From Tetracentron sinense (taxonomy: Eukaryota; Streptophyta; Magnoliopsida; Trochodendrales; Trochodendraceae): DNA of 64,000 nucleotides. Location: positions 12,150,041 to 12,214,040 of the forward strand of contig CM026565.1 of the NCBI GenBank assembly GCA_015143295.1, in the 5' to 3' direction. Shown in pieces: positions 3,209 to 36,793 of the stretch; position 1 is the stretch's first letter, and the number at the start of each line of letters is the position of its first letter. The position numbers and the translations under genes were made by a program. A model generated the notes under the pieces. It was not told where the DNA came from. It worked only from the letters and a program-made list of their open reading frames with translations, and made no database searches.

Positions 3209-4510
3209 TGGGTTCTCAATATAAGCCAGGAATTAAAGACAGTATTAGATATTGTCCCGTAAGCTTATAACAATATTGGAAGTGGAGGGACTGATCTGTA
3301 AACAAATCTTGAGATAGAAATACCTGTAAATAATTCTCTATTTTCTGGAGGTTAATTAGATTGTGTTAATGGACATTAATTGTGATTGGTGGAAGTCCAA
3401 GGATATAGATAAAATTCTATGATCCTAATGGAGTATAGGAAAGGTGTTTCCTAGTAACAATGCTTTAACCAAAAGGTTGAGTACTTGGTCCCACAACCGG
3501 AAATAGGAGATCCCTTTAGATCCCACACACAAAGACTTTCTTAAAGTATTTAAGTTAATGACTTATTAAATTAATTAATTTCTCTAAGAAATCACTATAT
3601 GGTATAGTGAAGCTCTAAAAGGTGGAATCACATTTGATGTGAAAAACCAAATGGGTAGGACCCATTGGGAAATATTTTAAAAGAAAATTTAAATTGACCA
3701 AAAGGGGTTTAGAACCCATGGGGATGTGTGGGAGTGTGGCCCACCTAGGCTGGGACGCCCACTTCATGGAGGATTCTATTTTGTTAGTCAATAATTAATT
3801 TCTAATTAATTAAACACCTTATTGGATAAGGTTAGTTAGTTAGTTAGTTAGTTACTAATTAAAGATTTCTTGTTGGACAAGGAGTCTATTAGTTTCTTGC
3901 TAATCAAGGAATCCTAATTGGATTAGGATAAGGATAAGATTAGTTGGACACTAAAGGATAAGATTAGTTTCTATTTTGATCAATCCTAATTAATTAAAGG
4001 AGAAACCAAATAGGAAACTAATTGAGGACTTCTAATTGGATTAGAAAGTGGAGTCTTGGGTTGCAAGCAACACAAGCATATCTTATTTAAAGGGTTGGAC
4101 GTCCAAGCATGTGAGACATTCAATAATTTCCAGAATTTCTAGATTTTGAAATATCTCCTCTCCCCTCAATCTCACGCCCTCCCCTCTCAAATTAGAGGTG
4201 TACGGTTAGCCCCCTAATCCCCCTTTCTTGTTATCTTGTGTTCTTAGTTTTGAATATCAAGAAGAGATTCAAGAACCCATTCTTGAATATAAAGATTGGA
4301 TCTTTTAATCAAGAATCAAGAGCTAGAATTTTTGGAAGGGCCATTAGCTTCCATTAGAGAAAGCTTTAAAGAAAAAGAAGGTCTGTGTGGCTTGCGAAGG
4401 AGACTTGGCACTTTTGAATTTTTGCCGGTATCGCTTTTATCGTGGATTTGACTTAACATTTTCAAAGTCGCAAAGGTATTGTGATTTTTAATCTTATTGA
4501 ATAAAATCAA
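3209..4510 (+). mobile_element. Partial copia LTR (K2 family) inserted in K1 RT
   Basis: This segment is a diverged, opposite-orientation relative of the LTR at 52015-53173. Shared stretches include GGTTAAT...TGTGTTAATGGACATTAATTGTGA, CCTAATGGAGTA and the block around TACTTGGTCCCACAACCGG. Homology begins at about 3209, so the first several hundred bases of the LTR are missing. A TATA-like TTATTTAAAGG near 4083 precedes a leader with CTCTCCCCTCAATCTCACGCC. The right end is not certain; I place it near 4510, before recognisable K1 RT resumes at about 4560. No target-site duplication could be read, and about 170 bp of the host RT is gone, so insertion plus deletion or recombination is likely. 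Nothing else is coded here. Confidence 0.65.
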
Positions 4511-24419: not shown

Positions 24420-25183
24420 GGTCCTGATGGCACAGTAAGGACAGGGACTGTAGTAAGCCACTTCTTCAGTTCCGTGAAACTGATCTCACACTTGTCGCTC
24501 CATACAAAATTCGCATTCTTCCTTGTTAGGTAAGTAGCGATGCCGCAAGGCTGGAGAAACCCTTCACGAATCTCCTGTAATAGCCTGCCAACCCAAGGAA
24601 ACTGTGTATTTCCGTGAAACTCTTGGGCCTCGCCCAACTCATAACTGCCTCTACTTTCTTTGGATCAACCAAGATGCTTTCCGCAGAAACAACGTGGCCT
24701 AGGAATGCCACCTCTTCCAACCAAAACTCACACTTACTGAGTTTGGAGTACAGTTTGTGCTCTCTCAGCATTTCCAAAGCAAGACGAAGGTCTCGCATGT
24801 GATCTTCCCGTGTCTGGGAGAACACCAAGATATCGTCGACAAATACTATCACGCATCGATCAAGATATGGCCGGAACACCCAGTTCATCAAATCCATAAA
24901 GGCTGCCGACGCATTTGTGAGACCAAAAGGCATTACCAAGAACTCGTAGTGTCCATATCGAGTCCGGAAAGCAGTTTTGGGAACATCTTCCGCCTTAATC
25001 TTCAACTGGTGATAGCCCGATCGAAGATCTATCTTCGAGAAAAATCTCGCTCCTTTCAACTGATCGAACAAGTCATCAATTCTAGGCAATGGATACCTAT
25101 TCTTTATAGTGACTTTGTTCAACTGCCGGTAATCGACGCACATCCGCTTCGAGCCATCCTTCTTCTTAACAAATAACACCGGG
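24420..25183 (-). pseudogene. Chromovirus reverse transcriptase (X)
   Basis: Minus strand: [74 protein letters not shown] and the catalytic [12 protein letters not shown]. The [20 protein letters not shown] and [11 protein letters not shown] connection region follows. The palm residues look intact, but a frameshift after SSLAAS (near 24527) disrupts the join to RNase H ([14 protein letters not shown]). At 25183 it is interrupted by element B1; the N-terminal side continues at 34754. Confidence 0.9.
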
Positions 25184-30963: not shown

Positions 30964-31098
30964 CTGAATTAATACACAAAGCTAATTTGTCAAATCATGA
31001 ATACATACATGCATCTTACATCATACCTCATAACATTTAATATCACACACATAGCATCAAAATAATATTTTAATTGACTAAAGCACAATTAAACGTAC
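30964..31098 (-). other. Candidate gag-pol intron of B1 (135 bp)
   Basis: On the minus strand the exon edge GTGCAGG/GTACGTTT is a GT donor and TATTAATTCAG/GCTCATTG an AG acceptor. Joining them reads CAG-GGC-TCA-TTG-TTG, giving Q-G-S-L-L-I-N and then the protease, in frame with Gag (DDVV-Q-G). Unspliced, the frame reads G-T-F-N-C-A-L-V-N and stops inside the intron. The same arrangement is present in X, Y and Z. Splicing is inferred; it needs RNA evidence. Confidence 0.8.
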
Positions 31099-34262: not shown

Positions 34263-34753
34263 ATTTTTGACCCGCTTTACTGTTTTGGCCATAACTTTTG
34301 ACTCGTTCGTCGGATTTTGACGATTCAACTTGGGTTGGATTCGTCTTTCGAAGACAAACATTTCTGGCATTTTAGAATTTCCAATTTCCACTTAATTAAT
34401 AGACTAAATTGTCTCCAAAGTTGATTGATCGGTAATTCCATTAGATAAAACCCACCATTGACTTGGCTTAAACTCAAAATAAGAAAAAAACATTAAACAT
34501 GAACTTCGAAGAGGGTTCCAACACCTTTGTAATGGTTCAAGAATCACTCAATTCCAGTAAACGGTGCCAAAACTAGAGCTTCCTAAAGTTTAGGGTGTGA
34601 TATGACATCCCTCCGTTACAAGTTGATTAAGCTTAGTTTACACCACAATAATTAGGCATAAAAAAAACAATAAACATTAAACATCACAAGGACTAAAATA
34701 CCCTTAACACAATGAAATAAAAACATGAAAACGATTCGGGTCTCTACACCGGG

Positions 34754-35402: not shown

Positions 35403-35544
35403 CTGAAATTTCAACTAGTTACGTCAATCCATGCATCACATCATATGTATATAAGTAGATAGATATATAGCACGCCACCTACGTACACAAGGAAAAAGGC
35501 ATAACATGACAATCGTGGATAAAAGAATAACTCTAAATGCGTAC
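35403..35544 (-). other. Candidate gag-pol intron of X (142 bp)
   Basis: Minus strand: GTGCAAG/GTACGCAT donor and GTTGAAATTTCAG/GAACCC acceptor. Joining gives CAA-GGA-ACC-CTA-CTA-GTC-AAC (Q-G-T-L-L-V-N), restoring the Gag-to-protease frame. A TTGACGTAAC word about 25 bases before the acceptor could serve as branch point. Unspliced reading stops within the intron. Confidence 0.82.
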
Positions 35545-36793
35545 CTTGCACCACATCATCAGATGCAAGTGCATCACCCTCTGTCAAGGCAAAAACTCAC
35601 CCCTGGTTCGCTTGGCGAGGCGGAGGTGTAGACCGGGTAGTCTGGGATGACGCCTGGTATCATCCTGTTGGGCGTGCTGGGGGCCTAATCCCCTGAGACT
35701 GGCCTGGTAAATGCCGACTAGGGCAATCCTTGATCATATGGCCCTGGCGACCACAATGAAAACATTCACCCGATGCCCTTCGGCAATCTCTTGCCGGGTG
35801 CCTTCTGCCGCACGAAGTGCAGACCTCGTGTGTATAGGTTGGAGGGGCCGGAGGTGGAGCATACCTCACCGTCTGAGGTGCAACTGGCCGTGGAGCTGGA
35901 AGAGCCTGAGGCCACAGTGCCTGAGGCATGTACGGCCGTGGAACTGGAGGTGCATAAGATGGCCTCATTGGTGGTGCTGGCCACGTGTACTGATACAGGC
36001 CAGTACGAGCCCGCCTCTCTGGAGGTGCTGAACTACTGGCTTGGCCTCTCACCAACTCTCTCTTCTTGGACACGGCCTCGGAATTCGCCTCCACCAATAA
36101 AGCCTTGTCTACTACCTCAGGGTAGGTAGCATGTTTGAAAACCGAAACCTTCTCCATGATAACATCTTTGAGCCCTTGCTCAAATCTTCTCCCTTTCATT
36201 GACTCGGTAGCAACCATGTGAGTCGCGAAGCGTGATAGCTCCGAGAACTTAGCCTCATAAGTGGCCACAGTCATCGAACCTTGCTCTAGGTTGATGAACT
36301 CTCTTTCTTTCTTTTTCCGTGCCCCAACAGGAAAGTACTTCTTATAAAAAGTATCCTTGAACTCCTCCCAAGTCCAGGGTTGACCCTGCATAATCAAATC
36401 TCGTGTCTTCAATGCGGACAACCACCAATGGTGGGCTTCGCCCTCTAGCATGAAAACAGCCCATGCTACTTTCTCTTCCTCTGTGGGCGAGAGGACCACA
36501 AAGATCTTCTCCATCTGGAGGATCCACGCCTCTGCAGCAAGAGGGTCCACACTCCCATGGAATGATGGAGGCCTCAATCTCTGGAATGCCTCAACTCCAG
36601 CTATACGATGTACTGGAGCTGCGGGTAGTGGAGTAGGTGCCGCTGACGATGGTATAGCCTGCCGAGCCGCCAGAATGGCGAGAGTCTCAACAATAGAGCC
36701 TAAGACCTGAGAGAGGTCCGACTGCTCATCCTCATCTCTAGAAGAAGATAAAGCTCTAGTGTGTGGCCCACGATCCCGTGTGCCCCGCCTCAT
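35545..36793 (-). pseudogene. Chromovirus gag (X, about 416 codons)
   Basis: Starts MRRGTRDRG at 36793; the longer frame to 36907 precedes the conserved Met. Order: low-complexity N-terminus, capsid (FHGSVDPLAAEAW, VAWAVFMLEGEAHHWW, TWEEFKDTFYKKYFP, LEQGSMTVATYEAKFSELS), a Pro-rich region (35900-36000), and two knuckles CTSCGRRHPARDC and CFHCGRQGHMIKDC. Stops occur at PTG-stop (35660-35662) and NQG-stop in the tail. The second TGA is shared with Y and absent in Z. Otherwise it is complete and close to family length. Confidence 0.9.

Follow-up and report, generated by a model that had tools for sequence, protein, structure and literature searches.

Introduction

To our knowledge, it is poorly understood how plant Ty3/gypsy retrotransposons that hold Gag and Pol in a single reading frame produce more Gag than Pol. 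Here we describe short inserts at the Gag/protease edge of four chromoviruses, the type of element to which the centromeric CRR of rice also belongs, in 64,000 nucleotides of Tetracentron sinense DNA (assembly GCA_015143295.1, contig CM026565.1, positions 12,150,041 to 12,214,040 of the forward strand; this whole stretch is called the window below). We provisionally take the four elements to be Tekay/Del-like. A system with similar logic is Ogre, of the Tat lineage of non-chromovirus Ty3/gypsy elements, in which an intron within the Gag-Pol coding region is removed from a subset of transcripts to yield the whole polyprotein (PMC6317226). In Ogre, which has no chromodomain, the intron acts one gene further on, whereas the inserts described here lie between Gag and protease, measure 93−142 bp, and occur in elements of which three (B, Y, and Z below) give chromodomain matches.

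Plant long terminal repeat (LTR) elements are described in a December 2025 review as generally intron-less, with Ogre and EVADE among the exceptions (PMC12786077). In two Ty1/copia elements, BARE1 of barley (intron of 104 nt, PMC3735527) and EVADE of Arabidopsis (PMC12786077), alternative splicing near the Gag/Pol boundary favors Gag over Pol. These elements belong to another superfamily, and their unspliced RNA encodes Gag-Pol while the spliced RNA encodes only Gag, the reverse of what is proposed here; a scheme in which the unspliced form is open and splicing creates the Gag stop does not fit our elements, since their unspliced form contains stops in all four copies. CRR is, like the present elements, of the Ty3/gypsy superfamily and has spliced transcripts, but there the reverse transcriptase (RT) is reportedly spliced out and two open reading frames (ORFs) are created (one sentence in PMC3735527). 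The REXdb survey gives one ORF for most groups and two for some, the two being 274 bp apart on average in Ogre and 172 bp apart in Bianca, which belongs to Ty1/copia and for which no splicing is stated in the section consulted (PMC6317226). The active Tekay elements of sunflower, a member of the Asteraceae, are chromoviruses of the clade to which we assign ours, and their extra feature is an additional ORF at the 5′ end (PMC11728184).

In the literature searched, with most subscription journals outside its coverage, we recognized no report of an intron at the Gag/protease edge of a chromovirus. In the text available for each, a long-read cDNA study of sunflower does not contain "intron" and has "splic" once (PMC9784723), a survey of Medicago describes a Tekay family without mention of an intron (PMC2533021), and a paper on centromeric elements is free of the terms intron, splic, and frameshift (PMC3059260). 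An earlier annotation of this DNA made from the letters alone, here called the first-pass annotation, had known of no comparable splicing in Tekay/Del-like elements. This stands for the Gag/protease edge, but to say that chromoviruses show no splicing would be too strong, given that CRR reportedly splices elsewhere in its transcript (PMC3735527).

Inserts at the Gag/Protease Junction

Plant LTR retrotransposons lie nested in one another in the window, and searches with Gag and Pol pieces identified four gag-bearing chromoviruses in it, designated B, X, Y, and Z. A tblastn search of the window with two Gag ORFs found no further gag copies, so that all four gag-keeping chromoviruses carry an insert at the Gag/protease edge, in each case beginning with GTACG and ending with TTCAG (Table 1). 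The first-pass annotation had listed four inserts with these edges and with lengths of 93, 135, or 142 bp, and all of them were recovered. A pattern composed of the last Gag codons followed by GTACG matches these four sites alone in the window and produced no match in 100 shuffles, and blastn of the inserts found nothing else similar within the window. The insert interrupts, as a phase-1 intron would, the codon for a conserved Gly in VVQ-G-TLLVN, which corresponds to position 24 of the Pfam protease model RVP_2. The window copies read DDVVQ-G with the codon divided as G/GN, except that Y has G/AA, which would give Glu; relatives read VVxGTLxx. Exact excision of the insert places Gag and Pol in the same phase in all four copies, in agreement with the continuous Gag-Pol frame that the first-pass annotation had described.

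The donor sites agree with the consensus at seven of nine bases in B, X, and Z and at eight of nine in Y, in a window where donors scoring 7 or more occur at 1.05−1.33 per kb per strand. From the window's own frequencies, the chance of the donor together with the TTCAG edge is ∼1e-6, or ∼4e-6 when four equivalent placements are allowed. The U content of the inserts is 40−44%, compared with 19−22% in the 300 bases before them and 30−35% after them, and stops are present in every frame of the inserts. Branch-point candidates are found in X, Y, and B (Table 1), where B has a second candidate, TTCAT, at 35 bases from the intron end. RNA folding of the inserts is ordinary (z from −0.35 to 1.23). 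The splice-type edges and the composition, taken with the exact position and phase, the inconsistent frame offset, and the insert-less relatives described below, uphold the intron reading of the first-pass annotation, and on this sequence evidence the inserts are very probably spliceosomal introns.

Relatives and Age of the Inserts

A protein search with the Z protease/RT piece, in which 7990 candidates were scored, gave 120 listed relatives. Of these, 114 align to a junction probe, 59 spanning the site and 55 aligning only near or after it, and 6 are unaligned. At the site, none of the 59 spanning relatives carries more than one inserted residue; four have one extra residue nearby, and one has a 7-residue gap just before it. 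The residue of the split codon is Gly in 55 of the 59 (Cys in 2, Ser in 2), and it is invariant when 20 sequences selected from the spanning relatives are aligned. All 10 relatives scanned match RVP_2 from position 3−5 to 130−132, with lengths equal within one residue; the Z piece, which starts past the last stop of its insert, matches this model from position 22 only. The 61 nonspanning relatives are silent rather than negative, because an intron-interrupted ORF would look alike. The six unaligned proteins are from Tanacetum and Smallanthus, both of the Asteraceae, and are probably the nearest kin of the window elements; among the listed proteins, local identity is highest for Tanacetum cinerariifolium (73%, covering 41% of the query) and Smallanthus (73%, covering 27%).

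Since the gene models of some of the 59 may have been spliced during annotation, proof of insert absence at the DNA level rests on two loci, L001 and L002, from contigs filed under bacterial genomes, whose DNA reads through the junction without insert or stop. They come from a scan of bacterial and archaeal contigs that gave 28 loci, among which these two are well aligned at the junction and L003 starts after it. Four more (L004, L005, L015, and L016) show only a distant alignment across the junction, interrupted by gaps of 1 to 9 residues; these were excluded. The remaining loci are unaligned there. The genome records that hold the chromovirus-like genes L001, L002, and L003 are those of Labilibacter, Mycobacterium, and Streptomyces, and all 28 loci are probably eukaryotic DNA contaminating such assemblies. 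In viral contigs, three scans for the protease/RT region turned up no relative. A scan with a junction pattern gave six stretches, which were left out of the evidence. A protein search with the X Gag gave four matches, from Manihot, at 30−36% identity, and the same search with the B Gag gave none, perhaps since the list of candidates was taken up by short words that are common.

In a FastTree tree of 41 sequences for the protease/RT piece, B and the X/Y/Z group are sisters with support 1.0, which fits a single gain of the insert on their stem. The tree includes 32 spanning relatives as well as L001 and L002; P0063 was dropped from the original 42 as shorter than 80 residues, and little overlap makes the placement of the Tanacetum pieces P0001 and P0003 unreliable. 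Between B and X, Y, or Z, synonymous differences amount to 0.72−0.91 per site, which is saturated, and nonsynonymous differences per site (dN) to 0.12−0.31 over integrase, RNase H, and protease/RT pieces. The ratio of dN to synonymous differences (dN/dS) is 0.08−0.33 within X/Y/Z and 0.05−0.33 overall where measurable, with a B−X "PR" comparison left out as misframed (27 codons, 8 stops, 33% identity, dN/dS 0.64). These ratios show that the coding sequence to either side of the junction stayed under purifying selection, most simply with the insert in place, and we infer that the insert is older than the split between B and X/Y/Z. The 3′ part of the intron is common to X, Y, and Z, with 35 of 37 bases identical between X and Z and 31 of 37 for X−Y and for Y−Z. 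An intron-bearing copy transposed fairly recently, as B is flanked by a perfect 5-bp target-site duplication (TSD), CCGGG (25179−25183 and 34749−34753), and its LTRs are 98.68% identical; at a substitution rate of 1.3e-8 per site per year, this identity corresponds to ∼0.5 million years.

Proposed Splicing Control and Alternatives

We consider it probable that the inserts are phase-1 introns placed where Gag meets protease in a Tekay/Del-like clade, that they are partly spliced, and that the Gag:Gag-Pol ratio is set thereby. The host spliceosome would act on some of the transcripts and excise the intron there. RNA left unspliced would then serve both as the genome and as the message for Gag alone, which would stop ahead of the protease, 4−34 codons beyond the junction, and spliced RNA would give Gag-Protease-Pol, so that the ratio of Gag to Gag-Pol would be governed by splicing efficiency. 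The intron would persist if packaging or reverse transcription takes unspliced RNA, or if intron-less descendants, which would make Gag-Pol only, fail to propagate. Partial splicing as the control of Gag versus Gag-Pol is, taken by itself, a fairly likely component of this model. The first-pass annotation had reasoned from the conserved insert to regulated partial splicing, which is a reasonable step.

Several observations weigh against this model. The +4 base of the donor is C where the consensus has A, and Z has no YTNAY branch-point candidate, this being the branch-point motif, 14 to 50 bases from the intron end. None of the four copies is intact (X is interrupted by stops to either side of the junction, the long gag ORF of Y ends short of it, Z has no gag ORF of 150 aa, and B has lost part of the capsid region and has a stop in protease/RT), so that expression of none of them is required. 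The unspliced RNA, in which a long untranslated stretch would follow the stop, could be open to degradation. As 61 of the 120 listed relatives fall short of the junction, other carriers could hide among them. The intron body of B is not significantly similar to those of X, Y, and Z, with 191, 33, and 168 of 500 shuffles, respectively, scoring as high. In the text available, the study of active sunflower Tekay elements, with 73 mentions of Tekay, has no word that begins with "intron" or "splic", and its authors may not have looked (PMC11728184). In another sunflower study, Tekay members are missing from the expressed set, and splicing is reported in Ty1/copia elements (PMC7730604).

The stop codons directly after the boundary would also suit a region of programmed frameshift, stop-readthrough, or internal initiation, since recoding is in use at the Gag/Pol boundaries of many retroelements. 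The unspliced Gag frame ends past the junction after 4 codons in Y, 9 in B, and 34 in X and Z, and 2−6 stops occur in that frame. Relative to Gag, the unspliced Pol frame is the same in B and Y and +1 in X and Z, so that no single frameshift or readthrough serves all four, and none of them has a Pol-frame ATG in the stretch from the last intron stop to the catalytic Asp. Frameshift, readthrough, and internal start were rejected by the frame offset, the stop counts, the lack of special RNA structure, and the ATG search, and recoding, which leaves the GT···AG edges unexplained, is hardly credible. Very improbable as well is a non-intron insertion, such as a small transposon or a rearrangement, that arose in one defective ancestor, was copied in trans, and has its GT···AG edges by chance. 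The broken state of the four copies and the missing part of the capsid region in B would agree with such an origin; it conflicts with frames kept under purifying selection on both sides to synonymous saturation while the ends stayed fixed, with the small chance of the edges, and with the absence of similar inserts elsewhere in the window. Because the intron bodies of B and X/Y/Z are not significantly alike, the case for a shared origin is made by position, phase, and edges, and B and X/Y/Z might each have acquired an intron separately at one and the same proto-splice site, CAAG/G. Such dissimilarity is, however, as expected of unconstrained sequence over saturated synonymous time, and the shared position, phase, and GTACG/TTCAG ends, TTGAC in three of four copies, and the sister relationship of the two families relative to insert-less relatives make two gains improbable.

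The last alternative accepts the intron and dispenses with the switch: the translated mRNA would be fully spliced, the genome would come from a separate unspliced pool, and the Gag:Pol ratio would be set otherwise, for example by protein turnover. Intron retention needs only that the packaged RNA be unspliced, and separate RNA pools could be another source of it; BARE is described as having a capped, translated pool and an uncapped, packaged one (PMC3735527). Sequence alone gives no splicing efficiency, and the donors are fairly strong in all four copies, which would be compatible with complete splicing. On the other side, unspliced RNA would be a natural Gag-only message, and Ogre reportedly splices only a subset of its transcripts (PMC6317226), so that we regard separate pools without a partial-splicing switch as rather unlikely.

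Elements and Features of the Window

Along B, X, Y, and Z the domain order is Gag, protease, RT, RNase H, integrase, and chromodomain, the last having been scanned in B, Y, and Z. Chromo matches follow SH3_Tf2-1 in all three of these end-reaching pieces (E from 2.1e-5 to 3.6e-4), every one of them scoring under the Pfam curated cutoff of 25.1 bits. X is split by B, and Z runs past the window end. B is nested in X, since the X protease/RT frame ends at one edge of B and RT resumes beyond the other; the TSD lies within this gene. The primer binding site of B, TGGTATCAGAGC, is presumably of the initiator-tRNA-Met type. According to the REXdb survey, tRNA-Met is the primer of most chromoviruses, and TSDs are of 4 or 5 bp (PMC6317226).

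The Gag ORF of B is open yet lacks about 66 capsid residues (X Gag residues 157−222 are unmatched, and there is no Retrotrans_gag match). With near-identical LTRs and a TSD despite this capsid gap, B may have been mobilized in trans by the Gag of another element. Two direct repeats of 623 bp, 95.8% identical, flank Y (39335−39957 and 51391−52013) and are possibly part of the Y LTRs. A 300-nt direct repeat family has six copies (7351−7650, 15306−15605, 23870−24169, 39412−39711, 43907−44206, and 51468−51767), 61−92% identical to the reference copy and perhaps LTR parts of related elements. At 4494−5366 on the minus strand, an open frame of 290 aa resembles by eye a fragment of a Ty1/copia polyprotein.

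Table 1. Positions in the window of the probable introns and of the chromovirus features around them
Feature	Position	Strand	Description
X probable intron	35403−35544	−	142 bp, GTACGC···TTTCAG, phase 1
B probable intron	30964−31098	−	135 bp, GTACGT···ATTCAG, phase 1
Y probable intron	41581−41673	+	93 bp, GTACGT···TTTCAG, phase 1
Z probable intron	62663−62804	−	142 bp, GTACGC···TTTCAG, phase 1
X branch-point candidate	35423−35427	−	TTGAC; A is 22nd base from intron end
Y branch-point candidate	41649−41653	+	TTGAC; A is 22nd from end
B branch-point candidate	30989−30993	−	TTGAC; A is 27th from end
X Gag side (exon 1)	35545−36937	−	Retrotrans_gag, Ty3_capsid, CCHC; long ORF stops at 35660, short of junction
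X protease/RT start (exon 2)	34749−35402	−	severed at 34749 by B insertion; RT resumes at 25182 and below
B element	25184−34748	−	two-LTR chromovirus inserted in X; TSD CCGGG
B 5′ LTR	32332−34748	−	2417 bp; 98.68% identity to B 3′ LTR
B primer binding site	32316−32327	−	TGGTATCAGAGC, beside 5′ LTR
B Gag side	31099−32065	−	ORF crosses donor and stops inside intron at 31070; capsid region incomplete
B protease/RT start	30137−30963	−	one stop
B integrase part, SH3_Tf2-1, chromodomain	27642−28760	−	domain matches
B 3′ LTR	25184−27599	−	2416 bp; pairs with B 5′ LTR
Y Gag side	40164−41580	+	long ORF 40380−41483 stops short of junction
Y protease side	41674−42205	+	
Z Gag side	62805−64000	−	no ORF of 150 aa or more; leaves window
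Z protease/RT start	61866−62662	−	open; RVP_2 match from model position 22

Conclusions

We lean, with some reserve, toward a history in which this clade would have exchanged the continuous Gag−protease frame of its relatives for splicing control, with spliced RNA as the sole source of protease and Pol and with the intron kept beyond synonymous saturation, independently of Ogre. Automatic annotation may label such elements as broken or as having two ORFs. An intron at the Gag/protease edge would be a simple and testable answer to how elements of this kind make more Gag than Pol, and it would join that of Ogre as the second known to outlast a life cycle in which the copying of spliced RNA could erase it.
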